21,326 nt of DNA, taken from IMG/VR virus record IMGVR_UViG_3300013306_000061, positions 1-21,326 of that record; one strand, given 5' to 3'. Made by a program: the position numbers and the translations under genes. The first letter of the stretch is position 1. Each line of letters opens with the position of its first letter. The notes below the pieces were generated by a model that saw only the letters and a program-made list of their open reading frames with translations, was not told the DNA's origin and did not search any database. The stretch comes from a virus. This document shows positions 4,823 through 21,326 of the stretch, in pieces.

Positions 4823-4859
4823 GGCCCCCGCTGACTCACCTGGCCAGTCAGCGGGGGCC
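4823..4859 (+). terminator. 14-bp hairpin between ssDNA-binding protein and polymerase genes
   Basis: A perfect 14-bp GC-rich stem (4823-4836 and 4846-4859) with a nine-base loop lies between the stop at 4782 and the polymerase start at 4888. It is followed by a C-rich, not U-rich, stretch. High-GC hosts often use such U-poor hairpins to end or slow transcription, so a terminator or an RNA-stabilising 3' end is likely. No separate promoter was recognised between it and the polymerase. Confidence 0.7.
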
Positions 4860-9729: not shown

Positions 9730-9743
9730 AGTAGCAACTACGC

Positions 9744-9787
9744 GGCTGGACTCGAACCGGTTTCACGAATACGGTTTGAGTCCAGCC
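9744..9787 (+). terminator. long hairpin containing AACCGGTT after the reductase/thioredoxin genes
   Basis: GGCTGGACTCGAACCG (from 9744) pairs with CGGTTTGAGTCCAGCC (to 9787): 16 pairs with a single G-U and a loop of about 12 bases. It lies just after the thioredoxin stop and before recA. The left arm and loop include the palindrome AACCGGTT (9755-9762). It probably ends the reductase transcript, although no U-tract follows; it may also hold an operator. The 10-mer GTAGCAACTA (9731-9740) just upstream is identical to 1542-1551. Confidence 0.72.
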
Positions 9788-9820
9788 GTTTCCACCTCCC
9801 ACCACCCACATTGGAGCCCC

Positions 9821-15871: not shown

Positions 15872-16449
15872 CCAAGATTCATCTCCCGCGCGTCGTCGGA
15901 GTTCACGGCGTCGCGCGTTCAGGTAAGGACACCATCGGCGAGGGGCTGGCGAAGCACGGCTACGAGCGCGTCTCGTTCGCCGACCCCATGCGCCGGGCGC
16001 TGTACAAGATGGACATGATCATCGGGGCGGACACCAAGGGTCGGCTCTGGAGGCTGGCCGAGGTGGTCGACGACATCGGCTGGGACGACGCCAAGACGGC
16101 CATGGACAGCGAGCCCCGTCGGCTGCTCCAGGTCTTCGGCACCGAGGTCGGTCGCGACATGTTCGGCGAGAACTTCTGGGTCGACCAGGCCCTGAAGATC
16201 GTGAACGCCCGGCCCGAGCAGCGGTTCGTCTTCACCGACGTCCGGTTCGAGAACGAGGTCGAGGCCGTCCGCAACCTGCCCGACTCGTACCTGCTGAAGG
16301 TGGAGCGGCCCGGCGTGGTGTCGATCAACGGCCACTCCAGCGACCGGTCGCTGCCGAACCACCTGTTCGACTCCTCGGTCATGAACGACGACACCATCGA
16401 GTACCTGCACGCCACGGTCCTTGATCATCTCCGGTGGGTCCACGGATGA
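15868..16449 (+). CDS. deoxynucleoside monophosphate kinase
   Basis: The 193-residue product has a P-loop GVARSGKDT (residues 14-22) and follows the phage dNMP kinase family (T4 gp1-like): FADPMRRALY near the substrate site, RLLQVFGTEVGRDMFGENFWVD, and the strand VFTDVRFENEVEAV. It phosphorylates dNMPs to dNDPs, feeding the nucleotide pool together with the ribonucleotide reductase and the HAD-like protein. The P-loop differs from GxxGxGKT by having Asp after the Lys, which is usual in this family. It overlaps both neighbours by ATGA. Confidence 0.88.
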   Translation: MTKIHLPRVVGVHGVARSGKDTIGEGLAKHGYERVSFADPMRRALYKMDMIIGADTKGRLWRLAEVVDDIGWDDAKTAMDSEPRRLLQVFGTEVGRDMFGENFWVDQALKIVNARPEQRFVFTDVRFENEVEAVRNLPDSYLLKVERPGVVSINGHSSDRSLPNHLFDSSVMNDDTIEYLHATVLDHLRWVHG

Positions 16450-17003
16450 TCTACATCGGCATCGACCAGTCGTACTCGGGCTTCGGCCTGGTCGGCTACA
16501 ACTTGGAGACCGGGGACCACCAGGCCGTGCTCGGCAAGTTCGACCCCAAGAAGTACGGCACGGGGATCGACAGGCTCTACGAGATCGACCAGTGGCTGGA
16601 GGAGGAGATCTCCGGGCTCAACGAGGGTCGCCCCTCGCTCACCGGCCACGTCTGCATGGAGGGCTACGCGCCGGGCTCGAAGTTCGGTCGTGAGAAGGCG
16701 GGGGAGTTGGGTGCCACGGTCAAGATGACGCTGCGTAACTGCCTCCCGGACCCCGTCAACTACCCGACCATCGTCAGCCCGACCGGCCTGAAGAAGTACG
16801 TGCTCGGCAAGGCAGCCTCGGGCAAGAACGTCATGCTCCTGGGTGTCTACAAGAAGTGGGGAGTGGAGTTCGCCAACGACAACCTGGCGGACGCCTACGC
16901 CCTGGCACGGATCGCAGCAGCCATGGACGGGGGTGGCAGCCTGGTCTACGAGCGGGACGTCATTTCCGCCCTGACCCGACACACGGAACGCCTCAATTCC
17001 TGA
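16446..17003 (+). CDS. RuvC-like Holliday junction resolvase
   Basis: The 185-residue protein has an RNase H-like fold with the RuvC catalytic set: D7 (YIGIDQSYSGFG), E72 (VCMEGYAPGSKFGREKAGEL) and D145 or D149 (NDNLADAYALARIA). It should cut four-way junctions or other branched DNA before packaging. With the PD-(D/E)XK protein at 11081 the phage has two unrelated nucleases of this role. ATG 16446 overlaps the kinase stop, while the frame extends to a GTG at 16434. The last codons are AT-richer and the intergenic hairpin follows at once. Confidence 0.87.
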   Translation: MIYIGIDQSYSGFGLVGYNLETGDHQAVLGKFDPKKYGTGIDRLYEIDQWLEEEISGLNEGRPSLTGHVCMEGYAPGSKFGREKAGELGATVKMTLRNCLPDPVNYPTIVSPTGLKKYVLGKAASGKNVMLLGVYKKWGVEFANDNLADAYALARIAAAMDGGGSLVYERDVISALTRHTERLNS

Positions 17004-17013
17004 ATCGGATTCT

Positions 17014-17088
17014 TGTTAGTACTCCTGGTCGGATTTCCCCTACCCTCGGGTGAGGATTACAAATCGGATTCGACCAGGAGTACTGACA
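17014..17088 (+). promoter_or_regulatory. inverted repeat hiding the ribosome-binding site of the SpoVS gene
   Basis: A 14-bp perfect inverted repeat (17018-17031 and 17071-17084) extends outward through a G-U, A-U, G-C and A-U to 17014/17088, and inward by wobble pairs to about 17036/17066. The right arm contains AGGAG (17076-17080) and the first base of the ATG at 17088. In an RNA that includes both arms the start would be shut. The direct repeat AATCGGATTC (17003-17012 and 17062-17071) flanks the left arm. A weak promoter inside the loop (TTCCCC 17035, TACAAA 17058, spacer 17) would give an RNA lacking the left arm. G+C is about 50% over 16991-17080. Confidence 0.75.
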
Positions 17089-17375
17089 TGGCCACGACTG
17101 ACACTGAAGACCGGATTCTCCGCGTCAAGGGGTCGTCGGCCCCGTCTTCCCTCGCCTCCGCGATCTCCCACGGCGTCTCCGACGGCCAGAACGTCGTGAT
17201 GCGCGCCATCGGCGCTGCCGCCGTCAACCAGGCCATCAAGGCCGTGGCCATCGCCCGGTCCTTCGTGGCCTCCCGAGGCATCGACCTCCACTGCATCCCC
17301 GCCTTCCACACGGTCGACGTGAACGGCGAGGAGATGTCCGCCATCGTGATCAAGGTCTTCCCGGCCAAGAACTGA
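17088..17375 (+). CDS. SpoVS-domain protein (95 aa)
   Basis: Nearly the whole protein matches the stage V sporulation protein S family: ILRVKGSSAPSSLASAI, then AIGAAAVNQAIKAVAIARSF, then GIDLHCIPAFHTVDVNGEEMSAIVIKVFP. In bacteria SpoVS is a small dimeric protein with an Alba-like, nucleic-acid-binding fold that affects spore development; its biochemical role is unsettled. Here it may alter host development or chromosome structure, or help expression of late genes. Translation starts at ATG 17088 with AGGAG seven bases upstream; that site is inside the inverted repeat. It has its own intergenic leader, rare in this compact window, and so is probably regulated separately. Confidence 0.9.
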   Translation: MATTDTEDRILRVKGSSAPSSLASAISHGVSDGQNVVMRAIGAAAVNQAIKAVAIARSFVASRGIDLHCIPAFHTVDVNGEEMSAIVIKVFPAKN

Positions 17376-17384
17376 TTCTCAGTC

Positions 17385-17394
17385 AAACCGGTTT
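17385..17394. promoter_or_regulatory. AAACCGGTTT palindrome, operator candidate
   Basis: This 10-bp perfect palindrome containing AACCGGTT lies in the 58-bp gap between the SpoVS gene and the gene at 17434. TAGACT (17401-17406) downstream could be a -10 box, but no convincing -35 box was seen. The site resembles those at 1520, 2421 and 9755. Confidence 0.5.
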
Positions 17395-17433
17395 CCGCCC
17401 TAGACTGGATTTGATTCAGCCAGGAGGCGTGAA

Positions 17434-17700
17434 ATGAACGGTGAAGGCCGTAGTGGTGAGTTCCTCGGTGGTGCTTACGAGGTCAAGAAGCCGTCATTCC
17501 AGACCCAGCAGCAGGGCGCTGGCAAGTCGTTCGCGTTCAAGTCCGTGCTCGACAACGTCCAGCCGTCGGGTAACGGGGCCTCCGTGGCCGACCGGGCCCG
17601 CATGTACAAGGGCGGCAAGTTGGGCTCGATCAACGGGCGCTCGGTGGACACGGACGCCAAGGCTCAGTGGCTGGATTCCCCGTACCGGACGTTCGGATAA
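17434..17700 (+). CDS. small Gly/Ser-rich hypothetical protein (88 aa)
   Basis: ATG 17434 has a strong CAGGAGG (17421-17427) six bases upstream, pointing to high expression. The product is Gly, Ser, Gln and Lys-rich (residues 20-60 in particular) and looks largely disordered, ending with WLDSPYRTFG. No family is known to me. It opens a run of four tiny basic proteins (17434-18443) that share low complexity and lack a hydrophobic core, followed by a structured hairpin. Such proteins could be virion or DNA-associated, but this is only inferred. Confidence 0.8.
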   Translation: MNGEGRSGEFLGGAYEVKKPSFQTQQQGAGKSFAFKSVLDNVQPSGNGASVADRARMYKGGKLGSINGRSVDTDAKAQWLDSPYRTFG

Positions 17701-17708
17701 GGACAGAG

Positions 17709-18041
17709 ATGGCGAAGAACACTCAGAGCGAGCCCAAGGGCAAGTTCGCAACCCAGGGCACCTCGGTGGCCAAGTCCGTCGCGAAGTCGCAGTCGGCTGC
17801 CCCGCAGAAGGGCATCCTGCGTCCGCGTGGCGGTTCCAAGGGCGGGATGCTGGAGGGCGCGACCGCGTCCCACAAGGCGAACGTCCAGGAGCGTCTCGGC
17901 GCGAAGTTGGCCCCGCAGGCGACGCTGTACGCGCCCAACGCGGCTGAGGCCAGCGCCACCCAGCGCAACGTCGTGACCGTCCCCTCGGCCATCGGCAACC
18001 GCGACTTCTACCTGCGTCGCCAGTACGGCCAGGGCACCTGA
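17709..18041 (+). CDS. basic low-complexity protein (110 aa)
   Basis: ATG 17709 follows AAGGAC about four bases upstream. The product is rich in Lys, Ser, Ala, Gln and Gly (VAKSVAKSQSAAPQKG, RPRGGSKGGM), strongly basic and probably disordered except for a short C-terminal part (NRDFYLRRQYGQGT). The ORF is open upstream to 17667, but the ribosome-binding site fixes this start. Without a recognisable fold I cannot name a function; a DNA-condensing or virion-internal role would fit its composition. Confidence 0.8.
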   Translation: MAKNTQSEPKGKFATQGTSVAKSVAKSQSAAPQKGILRPRGGSKGGMLEGATASHKANVQERLGAKLAPQATLYAPNAAEASATQRNVVTVPSAIGNRDFYLRRQYGQGT

Positions 18042-18042
18042 C

Positions 18043-18249
18043 ATGGCTCGTCACCGTTCGGAGTTCCCGCAGACCCAGAACGCGCGGGTCCGCGAGAACG
18101 CTGAGCGACTGGCGATCACGTCGCCTCTCACGAGGAACATCAACGAGATCAACCGGTCGGATCCCAAGGGCGCGGCTGCTCAGGCGTACCTGGGCCTGCA
18201 CCGGGGAGCCAACTTCGCAGGCGGCTTCGAGGCCGCAAGGAGCAACTGA
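18043..18249 (+). CDS. small basic hypothetical protein (68 aa)
   Basis: ATG 18043 lies one base after the previous stop, and the gene ends overlapping the next start (TGATG). The product is rich in Arg, Asn and Ala (HRSEFPQTQNARVRENAERL, ending GGFEAARSN), with a few helices and no conserved motif that I know. The upstream ribosome-binding site is weak, so translation is probably coupled to the gene before it. Confidence 0.75.
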   Translation: MARHRSEFPQTQNARVRENAERLAITSPLTRNINEINRSDPKGAAAQAYLGLHRGANFAGGFEAARSN

Positions 18250-18443
18250 TGGACATTCTGCCCAAGGGCCGTCAGGCCAAGCCGCTGAAGTTGGGTCGGG
18301 CTGCTCGCGCCGACGACCGGCGCTTCCAGGCCAACAGCGAGGGCTCTCGCTCCAGCCAGTTCGGCCAGGGCTGGGCCTCCGCGTCCAACCCCGAGTCCGC
18401 TGCCCAGGCCCGTCACGCCGAGCGCGAGTGGGGCCGGGCCTGA
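18249..18443 (+). CDS. small basic hypothetical protein (64 aa)
   Basis: ATG 18249 overlaps the previous stop. The sequence is Arg, Ala, Ser and Gln-rich (LKLGRAARADDRRFQANSEG, ending AEREWGRA) and lacks hydrophobic segments. It is the last of the four tiny basic genes before the hairpin at 18464-18515. The function is unknown. It is kept as a gene because its start overlaps the stop before it and its codon use matches that of its neighbours. Confidence 0.75.
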   Translation: MDILPKGRQAKPLKLGRAARADDRRFQANSEGSRSSQFGQGWASASNPESAAQARHAEREWGRA

Positions 18444-18463
18444 GCCCACCTGCAAGTCCGTCT

Positions 18464-18515
18464 AGGGGCTGGATGCTCCCGGCCAGCCGAACCGGCTCCG
18501 GGGCCTCCAGCCCCT
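18464..18515 (+). terminator. long stacked hairpin after the tiny-gene run
   Basis: AGGGGCTGGA (18464-18473) pairs perfectly with TCCAGCCCCT (18506-18515). Inside, CCCGG (18478-18482) can pair with CCGGG (18498-18502), and AGCCG/CGGCT (18485-18489 and 18493-18497) form the tip. The 94-bp gap before the next gene is nearly filled by it. It is probably a terminator or an RNA-stabilising end; no U-tract follows. Confidence 0.72.
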
Positions 18516-18537
18516 GTCGCGTCCAAGAGAGGTTCCG

Positions 18538-19062
18538 ATGAGCAACTGGTCATACCTGCCCGGCGTGGATCAGCCCGGCTCGAACGTGCGCGCGAACGGT
18601 GGGGCTGGCACGCAGGCCCTGCGCTTCCGTGACGGGCTCGACGCTGCCCGCTCGGCCATGGGCGACCGAGTCCCCTCAGCGGAGTACCCCGACGGCTACC
18701 TGGGCACGATCCAGTCCCGTCGCGAGGACCGCGTGCTGAACAAGGTCAAGCAGAAGTTGAACGACCGCTCGTACCAGCGGGGCGTGCACAAGGGCGAGCG
18801 GATCGACCCGAGCGACTACTACTGGCCGGACGAGATCAACCCGCAGATCGGCCTGGAGTACGAGGCTCGCGGGCTGAAGTGGCGGGCCAAGGGCAGCACG
18901 GTCAGCGAGCGGCTGGCCCACATGGGCAAGACCGAGGTGGCCAGCCCTGCAGAGGTGGCAGCGGCCCGGCAGATGTACGGGCTCACCGACCCCGGCACCC
19001 CGAACGAGATAGACCCCATCCGCCAGCAGCGGATGGCCAAGTTGATGCCCTCCTGGAGGTAG
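18538..19062 (+). CDS. hypothetical protein (174 aa)
   Basis: ATG 18538 follows AGAGAGG about seven bases upstream. The product has a Gly- and Asn-rich N-terminus of about 40 residues, then charged helices (VLNKVKQKLNDRSYQRGVHKGERID), a Trp/Tyr motif PSDYYWPDEINPQIGLEYEA, and a helical C-terminus. I do not recognise it. Its position between the tiny basic genes and the gene at 19067 hints at a structural or assembly-linked role, but the sequence does not prove it. Confidence 0.85.
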   Translation: MSNWSYLPGVDQPGSNVRANGGAGTQALRFRDGLDAARSAMGDRVPSAEYPDGYLGTIQSRREDRVLNKVKQKLNDRSYQRGVHKGERIDPSDYYWPDEINPQIGLEYEARGLKWRAKGSTVSERLAHMGKTEVASPAEVAAARQMYGLTDPGTPNEIDPIRQQRMAKLMPSWR

Positions 19063-20495: not shown

Positions 20496-20731
20496 TGGCA
20501 TACCCCCAGTCGCGTTCGATGAACGCAGAACTCAACGAGGGTGCGACCGACGGCAAGTACAAGAAGGTCATCGCGAACCGTGGTGGCGTCGTCGAGCCCA
20601 GCACCTACAAGAACCGGGTCGACCTCGACGGTCACTACTACGGCATCCACGAGGAGCCGGTCAAGATCCGTCCCGACGGCAAGGCCGTTCATACTCCGCT
20701 GTACGTGCCGACCGGTGAGGCGCAGTACTGA
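20495..20731 (+). CDS. hypothetical protein (78 aa)
   Basis: ATG 20495 overlaps the previous stop (TAATG), and its own stop overlaps the endolysin start (TGATG), so it is translated together with both. The product is mixed, with a Tyr/His-rich middle (STYKNRVDLDGHYYGIHEEPVKIR) and strands near the end (KAVHTPLYVPTG). No family was recognised. Its tight link to the endolysin could mean a role in lysis or late expression, but no membrane segment is present. Confidence 0.8.
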   Translation: MAYPQSRSMNAELNEGATDGKYKKVIANRGGVVEPSTYKNRVDLDGHYYGIHEEPVKIRPDGKAVHTPLYVPTGEAQY

Positions 20732-21326
20732 TGACCGTCTACAGCCAGAACGGCTACGTCGCCAACAACGTCGGGCTGACCAAGGTCTACACGGTCCCGA
20801 AGTCCAAGGTGAAGTTGCGTCTCCGCAAGGGCGACGTCGCTGCTGTCCTGCTGTACGTCGCGGCCTGGGTCGACCAGAACGTCGAGGACATCGACACCCG
20901 CGCGGGCGTCCGTGGCTTCGACGTGGCCGACGATTGGTCCTACGCTGAGCGCCCGATCCGGGGCCAGACGAAGACCCTCAGCAACCACTCCTCGGGCACG
21001 GCCATCGACATCAACGCCGTGCGCCATGGGCGTGGCGTCCACGGCACCTGGACCACCGCTCAGAAGGCCAAGATCCACGCCTTCCTGAAGACCCTCGACG
21101 GGGTCGTGCGCTGGGGCGAGGACTACTCCTCGGCCTCGGTCATCGACGGCATGCACTTCGAGATCGTCGGCTCCCCGGCCCAGGTCAAGGCGGTCGCCAA
21201 GAAGATCGGCAAGACGGGCTCCAAGAGCCGCACGGCCATCGCCTCGATCCTCGCGGTGCTGGCCCTCTCGGCTGCTGGGTACGGCGTCAACACGGCCACC
21301 AACCCTGGCCCGCCCGCCCCGAAGCC
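20731..21326 (+). CDS. M15-family peptidase endolysin, 3' end beyond window
   Basis: The frame is open to the last base, giving at least 198 residues. It shows the M15 D-Ala-type peptidase motifs: SNHSSGTAIDIN with zinc ligands H86 and D93, and DGMHFEIVGSP with catalytic D139 and zinc ligand H142 (D-x2-H as in the T5 endolysin). It cuts peptide bonds in the cell-wall cross-links and so breaks the host wall at the end of infection. Residues about 168-184 (RTAIASILAVLALSAAGY) are hydrophobic, followed by a Pro/Asn-rich stretch, so a membrane anchor or linker may come before a second domain. ATG 20731 overlaps the previous stop. Confidence 0.9.
   Translation, partial: MTVYSQNGYVANNVGLTKVYTVPKSKVKLRLRKGDVAAVLLYVAAWVDQNVEDIDTRAGVRGFDVADDWSYAERPIRGQTKTLSNHSSGTAIDINAVRHGRGVHGTWTTAQKAKIHAFLKTLDGVVRWGEDYSSASVIDGMHFEIVGSPAQVKAVAKKIGKTGSKSRTAIASILAVLALSAAGYGVNTATNPGPPAPK

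Follow-up and report, generated by a model that had tools for sequence, protein, structure and literature searches.

The window, by which we mean the whole stretch of 21,326 nucleotides analysed here, belongs to an actinobacterial-type phage, the same one as the 47.5-kb IMG/VR contig 3300013308_000027 (the sister contig G001), with which it is 99.98% identical over 21.1 kb. Its genes run in the order RNR, RecA-like, dNMP kinase, RuvC, an 84-nt gap, SpoVS, several small genes and the endolysin, and Table 1 collects the positions of the features discussed below. The SpoVS product scores 97.2 bits against the PF04232 profile and so passes its curated cut-off of 24, and the 110- and 174-aa products encoded downstream of it have, when compared by eye, recognisable counterparts after SpoVS in relatives (PSAEYPDGYLGTI...GVHKGERIDPSDYYWP is common). 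A longer SpoVS reading from the TTG at 17013, which lacks a well-spaced Shine-Dalgarno sequence (SD), was rejected; the closest homologs start at the position of the ATG. The next gap (17376–17433) is promoter-like (CGGTTTCCGCCCTAGACT) ahead of an AGGAGG SD and carries a weak hairpin. Downstream of the window, in G001, a 508-aa protein matches the queuine tRNA-ribosyltransferase family (PHROG 887), which suggests a queuosine-type modification of DNA or tRNA.

Table 1. Features of the RuvC–SpoVS region and its surroundings (window coordinates)
Feature	Position	Strand	Sequence or evidence
RuvC-like Holliday junction resolvase, source of read-through RNA	16446..17003	+	PHROG 159, E 6e-26
Direct repeat copy 1, near-palindromic	17002..17012	+	GAATCGGATTC
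Left arm (anti-SD arm) of hairpin	17014..17034	+	TGTTAGTACTCCTGGTCGGAT
Candidate -10 element TACCCT (TAnnnT), in loop, predicted	17041..17046	+	-47 from start codon; 53/67 relatives -10-like there
Predicted transcription start region GAGGA, in loop	17052..17056	+	inferred from -10 position and conserved purine-rich GGGAG-like stretch
Direct repeat copy 2, end overlaps right arm	17061..17071	+	AAATCGGATTC
Right arm of hairpin, spans SD and A of SpoVS ATG	17068..17088	+	ATTCGACCAGGAGTACTGACA
SD AGGAG of SpoVS	17076..17080	+	sequence
SpoVS gene, 95 aa	17088..17375	+	PF04232 E 5e-28; PHROG 35646; PDB 2eh1 relative
Small genes of putative SpoVS-led operon	17434..19062	+	17434-17700, 17709-18041, 18043-18249, 18249-18443, 18538-19062
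Endolysin, ~3.4 kb downstream, cut by window end, complete in G001	20731..21326	+	PHROG 1512, E 4e-31

The two arms form an inverted repeat of 21 pairs, two of them G-U, with 33 nt between the arms, and both the SD and the A of the SpoVS ATG (17088) lie inside the right arm. The initial annotation of this DNA had described 18 pairs, out to 17014/17088 and covering AGGAG and the A of the ATG, and this is what the outer 18 positions (17014–17031 with 17071–17088) hold, as 17 Watson-Crick pairs and one G-U pair (17017/17085); the inward continuation by wobble pairs that it also described consists of three further pairs, one of them G-U (17032/17070), which bring the total to 21. An RNA of positions 17005–17095 folds at -44.9 kcal/mol (z of -5.8 against shuffles), and the fold of 17000–17120, proposed at the outset as a check, is stable as well, with a z of -3.9 and 0 of 200 shuffles equally good. 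With the SD region held fixed and only the sequence before it randomised, none of 200 shuffled versions matched the repeat score of the window, and among the 111 SD-bearing candidate starts of the sister contig this repeat has the top SD-covering score (49, against 31 for the runner-up distinct locus). Because of these z-scores, shuffles and rank, the inverted repeat over the SpoVS SD is confirmed as real and not a product of chance. A search of Rfam families gave chance-level matches only, far under the gathering scores. The left arm was also considered as the ribosome-binding site (RBS) of a leftward gene, and this was rejected in the window, where the mirrored SD has no start codon after it; in one relative, L007, the left arm does read as the start and SD of such a gene.

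Two other features that had been said to set the region apart, its lower G+C and a direct repeat, are also present: the RuvC–SpoVS gap has 50% G+C against 65% for the window, and GAATCGGATTC and AAATCGGATTC are the two copies of the repeat. Further copies related to GAATCGGATTC lie near 17030 and 17112, around the candidate promoter, and may be sites for a regulator; the leaders of L016 and of the group of Streptomyces phage BRock contain motifs like them.

RuvC is followed by SpoVS in most of the ~80 viral contigs that were found with RuvC, and the same order occurs in Streptomyces phages BRock, GiJojo, LuckySocke, Alone3 and pSt2308. A tblastn search of phages with SpoVS gave no match at E 1e-5 and was run again at a lax limit. 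Many low-GC phages have ~0.4–1.2 kb of other sequence between the two genes, which are near neighbours in most. From the viral contigs and phages we obtained 116 distinct SpoVS leaders, which fall into 67 non-redundant clusters. A repeat that covers the SD is enriched in these leaders, reaching p ≤ 0.05 in 25 of the 67 clusters (Fisher 7.8e-15), and a repeat score of at least 20 is found at 34% of SpoVS starts but at 7% of the starts of other genes at the same loci, of which 176 were scored. The left arm mostly begins 43–53 nt ahead of the start codon. Independent repeats are present in L059, L134, L135, L170, L203, L205–L207, L026 and L038, and all of them span the SD; their arms are, for example, TAGTTCCTCAT/ATGAGGAACTA in L059, CCTTTGTTTC/GAAACAAAGG in L134, GTACGCTCC/GGAGCGTAC in L206 and L207, TTCCATGTGCTTTCCCC/GGGGGAAGCACATGGAA in L135, TTTTAGACC/GGTCTAAAA in L026 and TTACCTCTA/TAGAGGTAA in L038. 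The stems of low-GC relatives are mostly 8–13 bp long and have no U-tract, and they still lie over the SD.

In one clade, aligned as A3 and made up of related sequences, covariation is 0.228 against 0.118 in shuffled alignments (0 of 500), and the in-register pairing exceeds all slid versions in both the share of paired cells and the covariation score. The left arm of L140, L149 and L171 has changed to TTAGTCC, which pairs with GGACTAA one step downstream and leaves the SD covered. In L140, L149, L154, L171 and L175, a left arm of TTAGTCC or a near variant pairs with GGACTAA and no longer with the usual partner of the clade, AACCAAAGG, in what amounts to a partner switch. By these comparisons, relatives keep pairing over the SD at a nearly fixed position, with compensatory changes, while its letters change. 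The expectation that a repeat of importance would be retained in relatives is thus borne out by the enrichment and the compensatory changes, and its converse, that relatives might have the repeat destroyed, does not hold in general: ~40% of clusters keep the pairing at p ≤ 0.05 and the other ~60% miss that level, and the BRock group, L012 and L005 have a terminator-like hairpin in its place.

The 74 clusters of SpoVS genes from bacterial genomes show no enrichment of SD-covering repeats (Fisher 0.82). The one with the highest score, L209 of Actinomadura atramentaria, has the same sequence as the viral contig L135 and is for that reason taken as phage sequence. The SD-covering feature belongs to the phage gene and not to SpoVS generally. 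The L135/L209 sequence lies in a region of 88 kb that is classed as viral, within a 759-kb scaffold of A. atramentaria DSM 43919 (NZ_KB907208.1), and this apparent provirus of a cultured strain has a SpoVS gene with a strong lock over SD and ATG. Among the loci with a lock it is the only one seen in a cultured strain.

The standard sigma-70 scan finds no promoter in the gap because no -35 element is recognisable, and the evidence for the -10 element is its position and comparison among relatives. A -10-like hexamer is present at -52 to -42 in 53 of the 67 clusters, where windows of equal length elsewhere have a mean of 16, and a conserved purine-rich GGGAG-like stretch, which plausibly marks the transcription start region, lies 13–17 nt past the first base of the -10 in relatives. 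The presumed start in the 67 phage leaders reads GGGAG or is GAGGG-like, and in low-GC phages it is often inside a small inverted repeat such as TTACGTAgggagacccactaTACGTAA. The predicted start falls between the arms in most leaders, so an RNA begun there would contain little or none of the left arm.

Opening the SD of the window is predicted to cost 17.3 kcal/mol in the read-through RNA and 4.1 in an RNA that begins at the predicted start in the loop; when the sequence upstream in the long RNA is shuffled the cost is 4.9, and the local RNA folds weakly (z of +1.5). These values agree with the initial proposal that RNA reading through from RuvC would hide the RBS and that RNA begun in the loop, where TACCCT lies, would be open. 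When shuffling in the 67 clusters was confined to the part of the leader before the predicted start, the mean SD opening cost fell from 5.0 to 2.7 kcal/mol, with 2.1 for the local RNA (Wilcoxon 1.6e-8; p ≤ 0.05 in 29 of 67), in a test that was built around the proposed mechanism and used clusters related to one another. Start codons and -10 elements were chosen by a rule, and leaders lacking a -10 were taken to start at -35. In these modelled folds, across clusters, only sequence upstream of the predicted start closes the SD.

Some relatives have a different arrangement in the gap. BRock, GiJojo and LuckySocke, the three that were folded, each carry a hairpin that is very stable and U-rich on its 3' side (z of -3.6 to -5.2); these hairpins are missed by the terminator scan, owing to its loop and arm limits, and folds were used instead. 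The BRock group has a -10-like TACAAT hexamer after the hairpin and ahead of SpoVS (at -43/-44 in two cluster representatives), and the SDs of the Streptomyces phages are not locked, with opening costs of 1.0–4.4 kcal/mol. The hairpins of L012 and L005 are followed by U-rich sequence, and the SD of L012 is not locked; L005, whose start codon is uncertain, is the exception among terminator-bearing leaders. BRock, GiJojo, LuckySocke, Alone3 and pSt2308 thus share with the window the gene order and a -10-like hexamer before SpoVS, whereas in the first three a U-rich-sided hairpin precedes the promoter and the SD is unlocked. The simplest reading common to both arrangements would be that each shields SpoVS from read-through, the one by terminating the RNA and the other by locking it.

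Could the hairpin of the window itself be the transcription terminator of the RuvC operon, with the downstream gene served by its own promoter and the cover over its SD incidental? Terminator-like hairpins with U-rich sides are found at the same position in BRock, GiJojo, LuckySocke, L012 and L005, strong GC-rich stems that lack a U-tract occur elsewhere in the sister contig, and long stems of that kind have been proposed as terminators in actinobacteria. However, TGGCCACGAC and no U-tract follows the stem after 17088, an intrinsic terminator scan of the window found none at the site, and the 33-nt loop differs from the 8–12 nt of several intergenic stems of the same contig. A terminator, moreover, would have no reason to extend over the SD and start codon of the gene that follows, yet even the short stems of the low-GC relatives cover the SD, and we consider this explanation unlikely. 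Very stable stems with 8–12 nt loops and C-rich, not U-rich, tails lie at 4823–4859 and 9743–9788 of the window and at more sites in G001, and are possibly a phage-wide terminator style; the stem at 9743–9788 resembles a T-arm, but a tRNA was rejected there since ARAGORN finds none.

A slightly less probable reading is that the palindrome acts as DNA, forming with the GAATCGGATTC repeats a site for a dimeric repressor or activator, possibly SpoVS itself, around the SpoVS promoter. The arms do flank the candidate promoter, and GAATCGGATTC, itself nearly a palindrome, occurs more often in the window than expected (14 times against 4.5, with both strands of the near-palindrome counted). The mismatches across relatives, read on the sense strand, are 11 G-U and 10 A-C; G-U shows no excess of the kind that strand-specific RNA selection would give, as might be expected of an operator, and the count does not tell an RNA element from a DNA palindrome. 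An operator would nevertheless be expected to keep its letters rather than its complementarity and would not track the position of the SD, and the arm sequences are wholly different between lineages, with compensating changes. Least probable, and to our minds very much so, is that the 21-bp stem is an RNase III site at which read-through RNA is cut to split the RuvC and SpoVS messages: stems of about two helical turns, as this one is, are substrates of the enzyme, but the 8–13 bp of most relatives is too short for a typical substrate, and a cut in the right arm would remove the start region of SpoVS.

The best explanation, to which we give a probability of roughly 0.7, is an RNA lock that acts in cis and encloses a promoter. 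RNA reading through from the replication genes (RuvC and those upstream) would carry both arms and form the 21-bp stem, which would bury the SpoVS SD and start codon, and no SpoVS would be translated from it. A promoter with its -10 in the loop would start RNA near 17054; this RNA would be without the left arm, its SD would be open and SpoVS would be translated. The local promoter would thus be needed for SpoVS and perhaps for the small genes as far as the endolysin. We infer that this promoter is active, where it starts, that translation from the long RNA is repressed and that the local promoter acts later. Against the lock stand the RuvC stop codon, which ends 11 nt before the left arm, where a terminating ribosome could disturb folding, the lack of a recognisable -35 and the share of clusters above p 0.05.

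The lock is probably a real timing switch like that of the T4 lysis gene. A broader and more tentative idea, to which we give somewhat less than even odds, is that a very wide group of actinobacterial phages, which includes low-GC members that are probably freshwater, delays SpoVS to a set point of the infection by means of an RNA lock that evolves fast, rebuilds itself and has been exchanged for a terminator in some lineages. If this is true, early SpoVS would be costly and SpoVS would mark or drive the switch to the next phase. In the literature examined, viral SpoVS appears as a sporulation auxiliary gene, and a partial literature search found no earlier description of the RuvC–SpoVS leader. 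The present findings point to SpoVS, usually listed in viromes only under that heading, as a phage gene whose timing is closely guarded, and the changing letters, kept pairing and position, and terminator-like substitutes form a natural series in which the evolution of such locks can be tested.

Similar locks are documented in T4-like phages and for one Bacillus gene. In T4, longer RNAs of the early or middle period lock the SD and/or AUG of e (lysozyme), soc, 49 and I-TevI/II/III into a helix, and a late promoter sits where the 5' strand of the helix is encoded, so that the short RNA lacks that strand (PMC3014915, PMC2988022). The T4 e, soc, 49 and I-TevI leaders and the window have in common the locking of the SD in a long RNA, predicted by folding for the window, and the long polycistronic context; the candidate -10 in the loop would give the window the nested promoter layout as well. 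T4, however, uses gp55-dependent late promoters (TATAAATA), and repression has been measured there, whereas the -10 of the window is of the host-like TAnnnT form and is predicted; TATAAATA is absent from the RuvC–SpoVS gap, which has TACCCT instead, and the window differs further in its gene, SpoVS, in belonging to phages that infect actinobacteria and in its unrelated sequences. The comparison with T4 e, soc and 49 drawn in the initial annotation thus holds for the mechanism, where predicted folds support a reading like that of e and I-TevI, and fails for homology and for the T4 late promoter. In Aeromonas phage Aeh1, a hairpin in read-through RNA sequesters the RBS of mobE, near a late promoter, as experiments showed (PMC2988022); this hairpin layout is like that of the window, which is known by prediction, and the gene, phage group and promoter type are different. 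Read-through RNA of Bacillus subtilis sigG can fold into a large hairpin that transcripts from the sigG promoter itself cannot form, although read-through is reported not to be required for sigG expression and the RBS hairpin that was studied is a 5-bp one in its own leader (PMC5942855). The read-through-only hairpin is common to sigG and the window, and sigG is a cellular sporulation gene. Here the same logic is seen at one gene position in dozens of diverged leaders from phages of actinobacteria.
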